Below are positions 47,616-54,768 of a stretch of DNA of 64,000 bases, piece by piece. Both the position numbers and the translations under genes were made by a program. Source of the stretch: Brachybacterium sillae (GTDB lineage Bacteria > Actinomycetota > Actinomycetes > Actinomycetales > Dermabacteraceae); NCBI RefSeq assembly GCF_025028335.1, contig NZ_JAFEUW010000001.1, positions 1,736,001 through 1,800,000 on the forward strand. Reading direction: 5' to 3'. Within the stretch, counting starts at the first letter, position 1. The number at the start of each line of letters is the position of its first letter. The notes beneath the pieces were generated by a model. It was not told the origin of the DNA and searched no databases. It was given only the letters and a program-made list of their open reading frames with translations.

Positions 47616-48027
47616 CCGGCGCACGCATAGTACCCGGGTCCAACTACGCCGCCCGGCAGGATCGGGAAGAAGCCACACCGGTTGCAGTTCGCGCAGATTC
47701 TTCTGGCTGAACAGGACACGGGAATTCGTCCTTGCATGCACTGGTGGCGAGGAGCTCTCTGGAGCCTGTTGTAACGAGGTCGGGTCTACGGTTGTTGAGC
47801 GCGAGGGCGACATTTTCGCCCGTCAAGGGAGGGAGCGGGGGCGGAATCGAAGCCAGCTGCTCACCGTGGCTCGTCGCGGTGCCGATGACCGACGTCAACT
47901 TGACCAGGAATCGGATGGAGCCGCCTGGTTTGTCGTACCCCCCGGTATACTGTGGCGCTATCACGGTCACCTCCGGCGAAGAGGCACGAACGTCCGTGAG
48001 CCATCCAGCGGTAGCAAGGGAGCCCCC

Positions 48028-49025
48028 ATGACTCAGCATGACGAAGCCGTACGCATCGCAAGGTTGTTCACCGCCGCAGTCGAGAAATCGATGGTGACCA
48101 GCAAGCTGGGGAGCGGTGATGATTCGCTCCACAGGAATCACGCGCGTCACGAGGCTGTGGCTCAGTACTTACTTGACCACATCCTTCGAATCGAAGGCGA
48201 GCTCGATCGCCTCCTCCGCATGCTGGAGATCCGTATAGAGCACTACCCCGAGCTGTACTCGGAGTGGAAGGACCCAGCCTCCGGTCGCAGGTTCGACCAC
48301 GTCGTGGATGACAGATATGACGAGACCGAATGGACGTCGGTCCTGCTCATCGAGGACAAGATCGATGCTCCCCTCGGGGTGGGCCAGCTCCACAACTACT
48401 GCAAGTATCTGTCGAACATGGGGCGGGAGACGACGCTCCTCGTTCTGCATCCGATGCGAAACCCACTGTCCGCAGGTAAGGCAGAAGCCGAGACGCTCCG
48501 AAAGGAGTTCCCGTCTGTCGCGATTGAGTTCCGCACCTGGTCAGAGCTGGTGCAGGAGATGATCGAGGTCGCCCCAGATCGGCCCGAAGCAGTCCTGTGG
48601 CGAGCGCTGAAGGAGTACACCGAGTCGGTCGGAACGGGTGATCTCGAGCTGCTTCCAGACGCGAGCGTTCTCCTGGACCCTGCGGTATCCGGTGAGATCC
48701 GGGATGCCTTCCTCAGTGCTCAGGGTGTTGCGGCAATGCTCAAGGGCGGTAAGTCCGGTCAGCTTCGCTTTTCGCTGCACGGCGGCAATGCAGTGCCCTG
48801 GCTGCAGATGGGGATGAGCGACACGAAGAGCGACAGCGTGGGACTCGAGTTCGACCTCGTAGGGAGTGCTGAGCCGCTCCTGGTAGGTGTGAGAGGGCCG
48901 AGCGAACCTGGGAGCTACCTGACCTCGGCCAAGATCGGCGTGTTCCGGGACGGGAGGCTCAGTGCTCCCGCGCAGGAGAGAGCCGCAGCTCTGAAGGAAC
49001 TCGACCGGGGGGTCAGGAGCGGGAC
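48028..49025 (+). pseudogene. PD-(D/E)XK nuclease-like protein, N-terminal part (split by IS1634-type element)
   Basis: First 332 codons. Residues ~103-125 read SVLLIEDKIDAPLGVGQLHNYCKYL: Glu109 and Lys111 of the E-x-K core, followed by the QL..Y motif of the PDDEXK_4 type family; the preceding strand with DHVVDDRYDETEW supplies further acidic residues. AAGGGA precedes the ATG. After removal of the IS and one direct repeat the frame continues into the distal part for a 463-residue protein. In the present allele a TGA inside the IS end stops translation after 333 residues; the nuclease fold itself is complete. 412 bases upstream (47616-48027) show no convincing gene; TATACT at 47946 may be its -10 box. 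Confidence 0.8.
48959..49025. repeat. 67-bp direct repeat, left copy
   Basis: Identical over 67 bases to 52418-52484; it encodes SAPAQERAAALKELDRGVRSG in the interrupted gene. Interpreted as the target-site duplication of the IS1634-family element. Confidence 0.95.
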
Positions 49026-49044
49026 CTGAGTTGGACCTCTTTAG

Positions 49045-50748
49045 CCTCGAGATTTCACGGGGGTGTGGTCTCGACCGGCGGAATGAATGGCGAAAGGTGC
49101 TCCTGGCCTGGGATGATACGAGGTGTTGAGACCCGTACCCATCCGCTGGAAGGAGCACCTTTCAGGTGTCCCACCCTACCTTGTTCTTCTACCCCCGCCC
49201 GCGCGTGGACATCGCTGAGGTCCCCGCGGTCTCACACGCCGGCGCGGTGCTGCTGACCGACACGATCCACGCCACCGGCCTCGCCTCTTCGCTGCGGGAA
49301 GCACTGGCTCCTTGGACGAAACCGCTGGCCGAGCACCACGCGGCGAAGGTCCTGCTGGACCTCGCACTCACTCTCGCAATCGGCGGCGAGCACGCTTCGG
49401 ATACTGATCTGCTGCGATGCGAACCGGACCTGTTCGGAGACGTCGCCTCGACCCCCACGATCTCCCGCACGCTCACCACCCTCGCCCAGGACGCGCCCAC
49501 CGTGATCGAGGCGATCTCCCAGGCCCGCCGGGCCGCGCGGGAAAGAGCCTGGACCCTCGCCGGAGCGCATTCCCCGGCTGCGGGGGTCAGTGCGAAGAAC
49601 CCGCTGGTCGTCGACCTCGATGCCACCCTGATCAACGTCCACAGTGAGAAGGAGCAGGCCGCACCGACGTTCAAACGCGGCTTCGGATACCACCCTCTGT
49701 GCGCGTTCCTGGACCACGGCAGCGAAGGGACCGGGGAACCACTGGCGATCCACCTGCGCCCCGGCAACGCCGGCTCGAACACCGCCGCTGATCACATCAC
49801 CGTCACCCGGCAGGCCCTCGCGCAGCTGCCTGCGGGCCTGCTGGCCCGGGGCGGGCGGGGGTCGAAGAAGATCCTGATCCGCACCGACGGAGCCGGCGGC
49901 ACCAAGGACTTCCTGGCCTGGCTCCAGCGGCAGCGTCTGGCCTACTCAGTCGGGTTCACCCTCCCCGCGAACACCCCTGACCTGCTGGAACGTATCGATG
50001 AGGCGCAGGCGTGGACTCCCGCCTATGACACCGATACCGACGGGATCCGCGAGGGGGCGTGGGTGGCGGAGCTGACCGGACTGCTGGACCTGTCCGGGTG
50101 GCCTGCCGGGATGCGGGTGATCGTGCGGAAGGAACGTCCTCATCCTGGGGCGCAGCTGCGGATCACCGATCACGAGGGGATGCGCATCACCGCGTTCGCG
50201 ACCAACTCCCCGCGCGGCCAGCTCCCGGTCTTGGAGCTGCGGCACCGTCGCCGTGCACGCTGCGAGGACCGGATCCGTAACGCCAAGGACATGGGCCTTG
50301 AGAAGTTCCCGTTGCAGGGCTTCGCGCAGAACCAGGTCTGGTGCCAGATCGTCCAGCTCGCCAGCGAGCTCGTCGCCTGGATGCAGACCATCGCGCTGAC
50401 CGGCCATGATGCACGGAAGTGGGAGCCCAAACGGCTCCGCGCACGGCTGTTCGAGATCCCCGCGACCCTCGTGCGCCGCGCCCGGCACAAGGTCCTCCAC
50501 CTCGCCGAACATGCACCCGAAGCCGTGAGGGTCCTGACCGGCGTCAACCGGCTCCGCACCACCGTCGCACAGACCTAACCCGGCGAGACCACCCGCCCCA
50601 CCGACCAGCATCAACCTCTCGGGAGTGGAACCCGACCGCCCGCAACGGACACTGCGACGATCTGTCATACCCGAATGCCACAATCAGCAGCTCAACACCG
50701 GCAACGACGCCGACCGTCCCCGCTCACCAGCCCCATGAAACATCGAGG
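49045..50748 (+). mobile_element. Nested IS1380-family insertion sequence (1704 bp)
   Basis: Ends CCTCGAGATTTCACGGGG and, on the other side inward, CCTCGATGTTTCATGGGG. A 4-bp duplication TTAG lies at 49041-49044 and 50749-50752. It sits 19 bases inside the left end of the IS1634-type element. Before its transposase there is an inverted repeat AAGGTGCTCC/GGAGCACCTT (about 49095-49165). Confidence 0.92.
49166..50578 (+). CDS. IS1380-family transposase (470 aa)
   Basis: DDE transposase of a different IS1380 subgroup from the one at 28.9 kb. Markers: IGGEHASDTDLLRCEPDLFG, LVVDLDATLINVHSEKEQ (first Asp), ILIRTDGAGGTKDFLAWL (second Asp), and RCEDRIRNAKDMGLEKFP (Glu). GTG start with AAGGAG ~14 bases upstream. 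Complete. Confidence 0.92.
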   Translation: MSHPTLFFYPRPRVDIAEVPAVSHAGAVLLTDTIHATGLASSLREALAPWTKPLAEHHAAKVLLDLALTLAIGGEHASDTDLLRCEPDLFGDVASTPTISRTLTTLAQDAPTVIEAISQARRAARERAWTLAGAHSPAAGVSAKNPLVVDLDATLINVHSEKEQAAPTFKRGFGYHPLCAFLDHGSEGTGEPLAIHLRPGNAGSNTAADHITVTRQALAQLPAGLLARGGRGSKKILIRTDGAGGTKDFLAWLQRQRLAYSVGFTLPANTPDLLERIDEAQAWTPAYDTDTDGIREGAWVAELTGLLDLSGWPAGMRVIVRKERPHPGAQLRITDHEGMRITAFATNSPRGQLPVLELRHRRRARCEDRIRNAKDMGLEKFPLQGFAQNQVWCQIVQLASELVAWMQTIALTGHDARKWEPKRLRARLFEIPATLVRRARHKVLHLAEHAPEAVRVLTGVNRLRTTVAQT

Positions 50749-50763
50749 TTAGTGACCCATGCG

Positions 50764-52305
50764 TCAAGTCATCTTGAGGGCCTTGAGGATGGTGCGGGCA
50801 TCGTCGGTGAGCTCGGCCTTGGCCGTGATGTCCTGGCCGGCCAGGGTGATGGTCACGTCCTGCAACGGCCGTAGGGTCCGGATGATCTTGCGGATGCTGA
50901 ACCCCGTCTGGGCCTGCAGGAGACGGGCCATTGCCAGGGCGGTGAACACGATCGTGAGGTGAGCTTCGATCGCGTCCCGCTGCCGATGAAACATGGGCCT
51001 GGCCTGTAGGTCCGTCTTGCTCATCCGGAAGGACTGCTCGACCTGCCACAGGTCGTGATAGCTGGAGAGCACCTCCGCCGCGGACATCACCGTCGCGGGG
51101 ATGTTGGTGACGTAGCCCTTCAGCCCCACGAGGCTCCGTGCCCGCTTGAGGGAGGCTTCGTCGAGGCTGCGACCGGCCGCTGTGGTCTTCACGAACCGCG
51201 TCGACTTCACGGTCACGTCCCCGTCGATCACAGCGCGGGCTCGGTTCTCCTGCGCGGTCAGCGTGTGCCCATCCCGGATGGCGCGTTTCTTCGAGAACGC
51301 CCAGACCGCCCGCCAGTGCCCGGGATGCTCCGTCGGGTCCCAGACCGGCTCCCAGCGGTGCTGCTTCGTGTCGGTTTTCGTGTTGCCGTGACGTGGGGTG
51401 ATGGTGTCGATCAGCTGCCCGTCGGTGAACGCGTCACCGTTCCAGTGGAAGTGATGTGCAAGGTCACCAGGGGCTTTGACCTGCCGCGACCCGACGATGA
51501 ACCGCAGTCCCGCTTCGTTAAGGGCGGTCAGGTTCGCGGTGGAGAGCATCCCGGCGTCAGCGACGACGACCATGTCCGCTAGGCCGTGGCGGGCCTGGAA
51601 CTGCTGGATGATCGGCACGATCGTCGTGGTCTCGGCCTTGTTGCCCTCGAAGCAGCCGATCTCGAGCGGGAACCCGCCCCGATCCACCAGCAGCCCGACC
51701 ACGATCTGCGGATCCACTCGGCGCTCCTTCGAGTAGCCGACCTTCCGCAGTTCGTCCTCGTGCTCGGCCTCGAAGTAGAGCGTGGTGACGTCATAGAGCA
51801 CCAGAGAGATATCGCCGCTGGTCGAGGCATGTTCAAAGCAGTTCTTCGCTATCTGGTCGCGGTACTTGCACTGCTGGATCCGGGTCAGGCAGCGCTTCAT
51901 CGTTGAACGATGCACCGGATCGATCCCCACCTCGCTCAGCACGCGAGCGGAGTCGAGCATCGAGGTCGGGAAGATCAAACGCGCGGCGACGAGCTGGAAG
52001 AACGCCTCGTCCTCGAGCGCATCGAAACCAAGCCCTCTCCAGGTCGCCTGGAGCACGTCCAGCAGCAAGCGCGACCGCATGGACCGCACCACAGCTGCCT
52101 GGGGATCCTGCTCCAAGCCGAGGTCGAGAGTCTCCTGACCAGCATTGAGCTTGTCCCGGCCGGCCCTCATCAAAACAGCGAGCTCAGCCTCGGTATGCGC
52201 GGACCCGAGGTGCTCAAGGATCTTGTTCCGCCGACCCTCCTTAACGACCACCTGCACGGCAGTCGCGCCAGACGCCGTGGTCACCTTCCTCAAAAACGGG
52301 CTCAC
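50764..52305 (-). CDS. IS1634-family transposase (513 aa)
   Basis: IS1634/IS1549-type DDE transposase: LVLYDVTTLYFEAEHEDELRKVGYSKERR (first Asp in the conserved YD-T--YFE motif), MVVVADAGMLSTANL (second Asp), LWQVEQSFRMSKTDLQARPMFH (Glu). Start taken at the GTG giving VSPFLRKVTTASGA; the frame is open 7 codons further to a TTG. Complete, so the element may once have been mobile; the nested IS left the gene itself untouched. Confidence 0.9.
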   Translation of the reverse strand: MSPFLRKVTTASGATAVQVVVKEGRRNKILEHLGSAHTEAELAVLMRAGRDKLNAGQETLDLGLEQDPQAAVVRSMRSRLLLDVLQATWRGLGFDALEDEAFFQLVAARLIFPTSMLDSARVLSEVGIDPVHRSTMKRCLTRIQQCKYRDQIAKNCFEHASTSGDISLVLYDVTTLYFEAEHEDELRKVGYSKERRVDPQIVVGLLVDRGGFPLEIGCFEGNKAETTTIVPIIQQFQARHGLADMVVVADAGMLSTANLTALNEAGLRFIVGSRQVKAPGDLAHHFHWNGDAFTDGQLIDTITPRHGNTKTDTKQHRWEPVWDPTEHPGHWRAVWAFSKKRAIRDGHTLTAQENRARAVIDGDVTVKSTRFVKTTAAGRSLDEASLKRARSLVGLKGYVTNIPATVMSAAEVLSSYHDLWQVEQSFRMSKTDLQARPMFHRQRDAIEAHLTIVFTALAMARLLQAQTGFSIRKIIRTLRPLQDVTITLAGQDITAKAELTDDARTILKALKMT

Positions 52306-52417
52306 AACCCCCGACCCTACCCCCAATTAGTGACCCATCCAGCCACCCTGGAAACCCCACGACCAGCAGAAACGCTACTGAAATCTCTCAAACCAGGCCC
52401 GAGAGGTCCAACTCAGG

Positions 52418-52484
52418 TCAGTGCTCCCGCGCAGGAGAGAGCCGCAGCTCTGAAGGAACTCGACCGGGGGGTCAGGAGCGGGAC
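52418..52484. repeat. 67-bp direct repeat, right copy
   Basis: Exact copy of the left repeat, separated from the IS right end by a single extra G (52417). Confidence 0.95.
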
Positions 52485-53062: not shown

Positions 53063-54223
53063 GTGAGTGTCCACGTGGATGTCGCTCCCACCTTGCTGGA
53101 CTGGGCCGTGGGGCGTGCAGGCTGGGACGAGGAGACGGCGGAGCGAAGGTTCCCGCACCTCGCCGAGTGGAGGGCCGGAACCCGCAGGCCCACCGTGAAG
53201 CAGCTCGAGAAGTTCGCACAAGCCACGCATGCGCCGTTCGGGCAGCTTTTCCTTCCAGCCCCACCGGAGGAACCACTCCCGGTGCCCGACATGCGCACGC
53301 TGCGCGACGCGGCGATCAGTAGGCCATCCGCTGACCTCCTCGACACGATCTACCTGTGCCAGTTGCGCCAGGACTGGTTCCGGGACTACCTACTCGAGAA
53401 CAGCCTGGACCCGGTGCCGTATGTCGGATCCGCGACGACGATGGATGAGCCCGCGATCATCGCGCAGAGGATGTGGGACGTCCTCGGCATCAGTCCTGAT
53501 GCAGGACCACTCGCTCCGAACTGGGGCAGCGCCTTCAGCCTCCTGTCCGACCGCATCGAGGACAGTGGAACCCTCGTGATGGTCAGCGGCGTGGTCGGAT
53601 CGAACACCCGCCGCGTGCTGCAGCCTGAAGAGTTCCGCGGCTTCACCTTGGCTGACGACCTGGCTCCCCTGGTCTTCGTCAACGGCGCGGATAGCAAGGC
53701 CGCGCAGATCTTCACGCTCGTTCACGAGTTCGCCCATGTGTGGCTAGGAGGAAGCGCACTCTCCGATGCCGTGCCCGGTGCGACGAGTGCGCCTCCGGAC
53801 GAGCAATGGTGCAACGCCGTCGCCGCAGAGGTGCTGATGCCGGGCGAGACCGTCCGTGCCGAGTACATCGGTGACCAATCCGCAGAAGGACTGGATGCCC
53901 TCGCTCAGCGATTCACCGTGAGCACTCTCGTCGTGCTGCGTCGACTTGCCGACCTCAGCCTCATCACGAAGGAGCTGTACTACGAGCGATATGAGGAGGA
54001 GAAGGCGCGTGTTCTCGCACTTCTTGCCGAAGCGAAGGAGCAGAAGACAGACGGCGGAAGCTTCTACAACGTCCAGCCGCGACGGCTCAGCAGACAGTTC
54101 GCTCGAGCCGTGATCGCCAGCGCACGCGAGGGCAGGACGAGTTACCGGGACGCGTTCAAGCTGCTCGGCGTGAAGAAGCACAGCACCTTCGAGCAACTCG
54201 CTGAGCGGGTCGGGGTCAGCTGA
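53063..54223 (+). CDS. ImmA/IrrE-type metallopeptidase (386 aa)
   Basis: Zinc peptidase with the HEXXH motif in LVHEFAHVWLGG (His221, Glu222, His225) and the distal Asn/Glu-rich helix EQWCNAVAAEVLMPGE supplying the third ligand. The N-terminal ~60 residues resemble the XRE-linked segment that precedes this domain in proteins paired with DUF4411 (WRAGTRRPTVKQLEKFAQATHAPFGQLFL). GTG start after AGGAGGG. The stop overlaps the DUF4411 start (TGATG), so the two form a translationally coupled pair, commonly regarded as a toxin-antitoxin-like module. Confidence 0.9.
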   Translation: MSVHVDVAPTLLDWAVGRAGWDEETAERRFPHLAEWRAGTRRPTVKQLEKFAQATHAPFGQLFLPAPPEEPLPVPDMRTLRDAAISRPSADLLDTIYLCQLRQDWFRDYLLENSLDPVPYVGSATTMDEPAIIAQRMWDVLGISPDAGPLAPNWGSAFSLLSDRIEDSGTLVMVSGVVGSNTRRVLQPEEFRGFTLADDLAPLVFVNGADSKAAQIFTLVHEFAHVWLGGSALSDAVPGATSAPPDEQWCNAVAAEVLMPGETVRAEYIGDQSAEGLDALAQRFTVSTLVVLRRLADLSLITKELYYERYEEEKARVLALLAEAKEQKTDGGSFYNVQPRRLSRQFARAVIASAREGRTSYRDAFKLLGVKKHSTFEQLAERVGVS

Positions 54224-54768
54224 TGTACCTCGTTGACGCGAGCATCCTGATCGAAGCGAAGAACAGGTACTACGCGTTCGACATCGCGCCAGGGTTCTGG
54301 ACCTGGCTCGAACAGGGCCACCAGGCAGGAGAGCTGATCAGTATTGATGCCGTTCGCGATGAGCTCCTTAGCGGTGATGACGAGCTCGCGGACTGGGCGC
54401 GGGATCACCCGGGCTTCTTCCTACCGGTCGATCAGCGAACCGTCCAGAACTTCGCTCCGCTCAGCACGTGGGCAGCGAGGCAGGACTATCGGCAGGATGC
54501 GTTGAACGCGTTCTCGAGTGACCAAGCTGATTTCCTCCTCATCGCCCATGCCGCCGGGCATGGCGACACCGTCGTCACCAACGAACTGCCCAGTCCGAAC
54601 GCACGCAAGCGGGTGAAGATCCCGGACGCCTGTGCCGCGATGGGAGTCGAGTATGTCGATGTCTTCACGGTGATGCGGACTACAGGAGCGAAGCTCCACT
54701 TGCATGGGGCGGATGGAAGCACGCCCGCGCCTGCGCCCCTGGCGCCGACCATTCCAGGGCTCGACTGA
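54223..54768 (+). CDS. DUF4411 family PIN-like protein (181 aa)
   Basis: PIN-fold nuclease-like protein: MYLVDASILIEAKNRYYAFDIAPGFW (Asp5), DAVRDELLSGDDELADWA (acidic pair), SSDQADFLLIAHAAGHGDTVVTNE (second Asp cluster) and KRVKIPDACAAMGVEYVDVF, all matching DUF4411. A ~20-residue Pro/Ala tail follows. Expected toxin or effector of the ImmA/IrrE pair. No frameshift is seen, so it may be active. Confidence 0.88.
   Translation: MYLVDASILIEAKNRYYAFDIAPGFWTWLEQGHQAGELISIDAVRDELLSGDDELADWARDHPGFFLPVDQRTVQNFAPLSTWAARQDYRQDALNAFSSDQADFLLIAHAAGHGDTVVTNELPSPNARKRVKIPDACAAMGVEYVDVFTVMRTTGAKLHLHGADGSTPAPAPLAPTIPGLD

Follow-up and report, generated by a model that had tools for sequence, protein, structure and literature searches.

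The IS1634 family of insertion sequences is characterised by a DDE transposase with the signature Y-(2)-x-(3)-E-(6)-K, in which the R of the YREK motif has been lost from most members, by lengths of 1500-2000 bp, and by ends of the form C-----YT (PMC2266710, including its Table 1). Most members are described there as making AT-rich direct repeats of 5-6 bp, and the exceptions are IS1549 of Mycobacterium smegmatis and IS1634 of Mycoplasma mycoides SC, whose direct repeats are long and variable and together range from 8 to 514 bp. According to that 2008 review, no one had yet put forward a mechanistic model for the variable length. Our literature search, whose coverage mostly excluded subscription papers, also found no recognisable model for it. 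Thus, the element family and its long, variable duplications are known already; what we add is a new and testable regularity for the length.

The window, by which we mean the whole stretch of 64,000 nucleotides of Brachybacterium sillae that was analysed, contains an element of the same family with the same kind of long direct repeat. Direct repeats of both reported kinds, short and long, occur among the six copies in its genome, but AT-richness was not seen, and the 5-bp repeats instead resemble YCNGR. Because the review treats long repeats as exceptions inside the family, we do not take these differences to exclude the element from it.

Two nested elements and a 66-bp target duplication

The same bases occur at 48959-49025 and at 52418-52484, directly outside an element that is bounded by inverted repeats. 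From this, an earlier note made from the sequence alone had described 67-base direct repeats, inverted repeats of 15 bp, and a one-base G (52417) left over between the element and the right repeat. The repeat is real and does flank the inverted repeats, but its length and the ends of the element needed correction. Five other full-length copies in the genome (L001, L002, L004, L005, and L006) share the same 16 bp at both ends and have different flanks, so the element itself ends with G52417, as in those five copies, and the duplication is 66 bp long (Table 1). The match extends to a 67th base because the element begins with C and the target has a C at the corresponding position. An exact repeat of 66 bases is no chance match.

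The earlier note had interpreted the repeat as a target duplication and had proposed comparison with a relative that lacks the element, and this comparison bore it out. The closest relative that we compared (G006, locus L044) has no insertion and carries the 66 bases once, with one mismatch and with the same outer bases; its open reading frame (ORF) is open for 504 amino acids. Thus, transposition of the outer element into this ORF created the 66-bp target duplication. The 5' part of the interrupted ORF had no match in Pfam or NCBIfam at E ≤ 0.001. Just downstream of the interrupted ORF, at 53063-54768, there is a gene for an IrrE/M78-type peptidase followed directly by a DUF4411 gene, a pair that may be toxin-antitoxin-like or part of a mobile island.

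TABLE 1 Features of the interrupted locus, with positions in the window
Feature	Position	Strand	Evidence
Interrupted ORF, 5' part	47866..49029	+	ORF list; 99% identical uninterrupted ORF in G006
Target duplication, left copy, 66 bp	48959..49024	.	Exact repeat; single copy in empty site of G006 (L044)
IS1634-family insertion sequence as it stands, 3393 bp (1685 bp own)	49025..52417	-	Ends from copy comparison; length without inner IS
Terminal inverted repeat, 16 bp, CCTGAGTTGGACCTCT	49025..49040	+	Comparison of genome copies
TTAG, inner-IS duplication, left copy	49041..49044	.	Sequence comparison
Nested IS1380-family insertion sequence, 1704 bp	49045..50748	+	Ends CCTCGA.../...TCGAGG, 4-bp duplication
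IS1380-family transposase, 470 aa	49166..50578	+	NF033539 328.7 bits, cut-off 180; PF13701
TTAG, inner-IS duplication, right copy	50749..50752	.	Sequence comparison
IS1634-family DDE transposase, 520 aa	50764..52326	-	NF033559 416.5 bits; PF01609 59.5 bits
Terminal inverted repeat, 16 bp	52402..52417	-	Comparison of genome copies
Target duplication, right copy, 66 bp	52418..52483	.	Exact repeat

The assignment of the outer element to the IS1634 family, also made in the earlier note, is confirmed by NCBIfam: its transposase matches the family model transpos_IS1634 (E = 1.7e-124; cut-off, 100 bits). Without the inner element, the outer one has four mismatches to copy L001, and both its length and its ends (CCTGAGTT) are those of the family. 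In alignments of 11 and of 30 relatives, D179, D257, and E430 are invariant, as are Y423 and L426 (which replaces R), and K437 is at least 90% conserved; the catalytic and other roles of these residues are assigned by motif. A search of solved structures returned none of relevance. The copies in this genome differ by just 1-9 mismatches over 1685 bp, which suggests only that transposition was recent.

Where the earlier note saw one element there are two, one nested in the other; the inner, IS1380-family element had been overlooked. It resembles other IS1380-family elements both in matching the family model (NF033539) and in its 4-bp duplication, which is typical of that family, and nothing about it is unusual.

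Two length classes from one element

We gathered further copies from whole genomes, from named genome contigs (88 relatives, with 79 loci kept), and from plasmids (33 records, of which 15 were taken). In the order search, the class search, and one family search, only 3 or 4 candidates were scored per genome, which makes the sample incomplete; nearly all of it comes from Actinomycetota. (Among viral contigs, three stretches fit a pattern, and none had an encoded relative.) Ends were called by their inverted repeats, with CCTGA-like heads required, and copies that shared their 30-bp flanks were treated as one. Chains of hits without paired ends under this rule were left out: 43 in the first round and 6 in a later round, some of which repeat one locus.

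The six copies in this genome have duplications of 5, 5, 39, 66, 72, and 96 bp, where the value of 39 bp, for L004, was measured beyond a 228-bp partial repeat of the element's end. The earlier note would have counted short, constant duplications at the other copies as a refutation, and the other copies are not all of that kind; however, two of the six are exactly 5 bp, so the rule is two modes rather than merely long and variable.

The same two modes appear in the larger sample. Among 157 copies with callable ends, 30 have duplications of exactly 5 bp, and 72 have exact duplications of 24-629 bp (median, 75), which we call long by a 20-bp cut that was chosen after the first lengths had been seen. 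Another 48 have 0-3 bp; these include four with too little flank and also L004, which was classified at its inner end although 39 bp lie outside its partial repeat. The remaining seven fall outside all classes: L105 (4 bp), L039 (6 bp), L088 (8 bp), L161 (11 bp), and three with inexact repeats (L115, L203, and L234). Just three copies have exact lengths between 6 and 23 bp (6, 8, and 11), and the range of 12-23 bp was empty in the later-collected copies too, as had been predicted before they were examined. Five-base matches at shifted ends are rare (21 of 3,876 trials), so the 5-bp class is not due to chance. Furthermore, there are three sets in which copies with identical transposases show both modes: L001 (72 bp), L002 (5 bp), and the window copy (66 bp); L030 (5 bp) and L034 (322 bp); and L198 (5 bp) and L214 (72 bp).

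Named Rhodococcus plasmids also supplied single-copy empty sites for three plasmid insertions with long repeats: for L201 (102 bp), L284 with no mismatches, as well as L286 by BLAST overlap; for L203 (93 bp), L287 with two mismatches; and for L210 (147 bp), L285 with a BLAST overlap of 143 and small indels. With the window copy, this makes four long repeats with single-copy empty sites, so the repeat is made by the insertion. These three are from a search of nine plasmid insertions, in which L202, L204, L206, L209, and the zero-repeat copy L207 gave self-matches only, and L205 and the 5-bp copy L212 gave partial or repetitive matches. For L006, a 5-bp copy in this genome, both flanks are collinear in 6 of 9 relative loci, and the alignments break off short of the junction, by 38 bp on one side and at least 116 bp on the other.

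The spacing between the second D and the E of the transposase splits the survey into two groups, with 156-157 or 173-180 residues. The 5-bp copies have 17 members with the shorter spacing and 10 with the longer, and the long copies have 3 and 65 (the spacing was not measurable for 3 and 4 copies, respectively). However, the spacing follows a single deep split in the tree, with 24 rows (12 five, 3 long) on one side and 91 rows (9 five, 51 long) on the other, so ancestry alone may explain its link with the duplication mode. As another candidate marker of the long mode, we considered a tryptophan-rich insert, but a text pattern for it failed to separate the classes.

Several sites have additional pieces of the element. 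In L004 (positions 1182-1409), a perfect 228-bp repeat of the element's own end precedes the full copy, inside the 39-bp duplication and with no N; a second insertion with later recombination could have produced this structure, as could an error of assembly. In G035, the loci L030, L036, L039, and L042 have 138-bp repeats of the element's end, with N in the repeats of L030 and L042 and beside the element in L036; these are probably scaffold joins. The second contig of the B. sillae genome (C2, 5,195 bp) contains several broken matches to IS1634-type transposases.

Junction motifs and a proposed mechanism

The 5-bp duplications match the palindrome YCNGR in 22 of 30 cases. In the first 54 long copies, the junctions score above the local background for this motif at either end, yet the scores of the two ends of a copy are anticorrelated (r = -0.61; 0 of 20,000 permutations were as low): scores above 2 were found at both ends in no copies, at one end in 20, and at neither in 34. 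The same test, fixed beforehand, was applied to 18 later long copies and gave r = -0.65 (P = 0.0021), with high scores at both ends in none, at one in 11, and at neither in 7. The anticorrelation persists when each distinct transposase is represented by a single copy (r = -0.65, n = 55). Across all 72 long copies, YCNNR is present at exactly one end in 41 and at both ends in 1, as compared to 6.1 expected if the ends were independent (Fisher's exact test, P = 0.002). Since neither end fits YCNNR in the other 30, the use of a half-site in long copies is a tendency. The window copy is no clean example, as its junctions, |TCAGT and |TCCCG, both start with TC.

The end that resembles the 5-bp motif often lacks part of it. 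Among ends that start with YC, G at +4 is found in 25 of 27 for the 5-bp copies but in just 19 of 50 for the long copies (P = 2.3e-6), which is near the local background of 302/1,024; this drop had also been predicted beforehand, and its test used the pooled set. In contrast, A at +5 is retained in the long copies (31/50, versus a local background of 163/1,024). The partner ends of the 41 long copies with one YCNNR end have a different preference: 30 of them carry G at +2, and 25 carry G at -1, the base adjoining the cut on the attacked strand. With one partner end per transposase, G at +2 is found in 22 of 30 (P = 1.9e-5). The earlier note had suspected that the odd G at the right end might reflect how ends are processed. 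Although that base is no leftover, there is some ground for the suspicion: G at -1 is found in 17 of 60 ends of 5-bp copies, compared with 25 of the 41 partner ends in long copies.

A two-motif model fitted by expectation maximization, in which each kind of end has its own motif, recovered S|TCNNA and G|WG. Its likelihood exceeded that of all 300 re-pairings of the ends, and when trained on the first 54 copies, it described the 18 later copies better than a model with independent ends. The TCNNA end may be either end of the element (the right end in 41 copies and the left end in 31). The G|WG preference of the partner was noticed after looking at the data and is post hoc.

YCNGR resembles two TCNNA footprints superposed on opposite strands, 5 bp apart, and the long duplications look like cases in which the second footprint has been lost. 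On balance, we lean toward a transposase with two outcomes, which acts in concert at two half-sites and makes separate joins if one is missing. If the target has two facing half-sites, so that YCNGR is formed by overlapping TCNNA on opposite strands, then both ends of the element would be joined in a single concerted step with a 5-bp offset, leaving a duplication of that length. If the second half-site is missing, S|TCNNA would receive one end, and the other end would join the opposite strand at a distance of 24-629 bp, where the sequence fits the different and weaker preference G|WG; gap filling by the host would then copy everything between the joins, which would leave a long and variable direct repeat. 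Three parts of this scheme are inferences: the joins are made one after the other, both are the work of the transposase, and the gap is filled by the host. The partner motif could reflect either a relaxed choice by the transposase or a join made by the host. More tentatively, the target itself may set the duplication length, with two half-sites leading to concerted joining and a single one to uncoupled joining, where a different recognition event, perhaps one by the replication machinery, would position the second end 24-629 bp off; we would not be surprised if this broader proposal were wrong.

One consideration argues against uncoupled joining: if the two joins were fully uncoupled, short deletions should arise as often as duplications. 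Two copies without duplications (L033 and L200) have rearranged neighbourhoods and no short deletions. For L033, all 11 relative loci contain the right flank, from a point 15-33 bp beyond the junction onward, and none of the 11 contains the left flank; for L200, the left flank is found up to the junction in all three relatives, and the right flank in none of the three within 8 kb. In Pfam scans of 20 flank fragments from 10 copies without repeats, made to look for deletions, the same family was found on both sides in none. The 48 of 157 copies with 0-3 bp fall outside the two-mode account.

Alternative explanations and comparison with known systems

First, the second junction might be made by the host: the transposase would join one end, and the other would be fixed during replication or repair, perhaps where the sliding clamp gives access to a fork or gap, which would set the length. 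We consider this unlikely, but it deserves weight because the transposase of an IS1634-family element from Acidiphilium binds the sliding clamp, and transposition increases when the clamp motif is strengthened, according to the accessible part of PMC4549789. It would also account for the different preferences of the two junctions, and a distance of up to 629 bp is hard to imagine as a simple stagger. However, both ends of the element are intact to the last base in the called copies, as if the transposase cuts both (although the calling rule requires CCTGA-like heads), and microhomology at the second ends amounts to one base at most (the frequency of G is 0.63 at -1 and 0.29 at -2).

Second, the long repeats might arise in two steps, with an ordinary 5-bp insertion followed later by recutting of one end and its rejoining nearby. 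The final structure would be identical, and one good end and one poor end would be accounted for, but the good end should then retain the full palindrome, and instead its +4 G drops to near background. This makes the two-step route improbable.

Third, a single complex might act at one site with a staggered cut whose spacing is helix-phased and otherwise random. The long direct repeats at all sites speak for it, but it is already disfavoured and, in our judgement, very improbable: among the copies of up to 110 bp in the first 54, no clear helical periodicity was found (Rayleigh P of 0.08 to 0.86 for periods of 10.0-11), the two junctions are not equivalent, and there are almost no lengths between 6 and 23 bp.

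Finally, it is scarcely credible that the long repeats come from faulty assembly or were already duplicated before the insertion: ends of the element are repeated for 138 bp beside N in G035 (B. timonense) and N is nearby in 5 of the 72 long copies, but four sites have single-copy empty counterparts, 33 of the 72 are in closed or near-closed records by contig counts, and without the copies near N, the end scores are still anticorrelated (r = -0.57, n = 67).

The reading that we favour, with concerted joining at two half-sites and separate joining if one is missing, combines two modes in one element, a palindrome in the short mode, and a half-site with a different partner in the long mode, and it leads to a prediction that a single plasmid-target experiment could test. 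If the broader, more tentative proposal is correct, the transposase would switch between concerted and sequential strand transfer according to the target sequence. The regularity would also be a caution for programs that find insertion sequences by seeking short, constant repeats.

Other members of the family have been reported with short duplications: ISPfe2 (PMC3281130) and ISGka5 (PMC8024623) each make 6-bp duplications, and a figure legend for IS1634-1 of Acidiphilium gives 6-base repeats, worded as inverted (PMC4549789). The accessible parts of these three papers make no mention of the long mode that we see here. The closest likeness is to IS1549 and IS1634, but unlike those elements as described in the accessible portion of PMC2266710, one element here gives either exactly 5 bp or at least 24 bp, and in the long cases the motifs at its two junctions differ.
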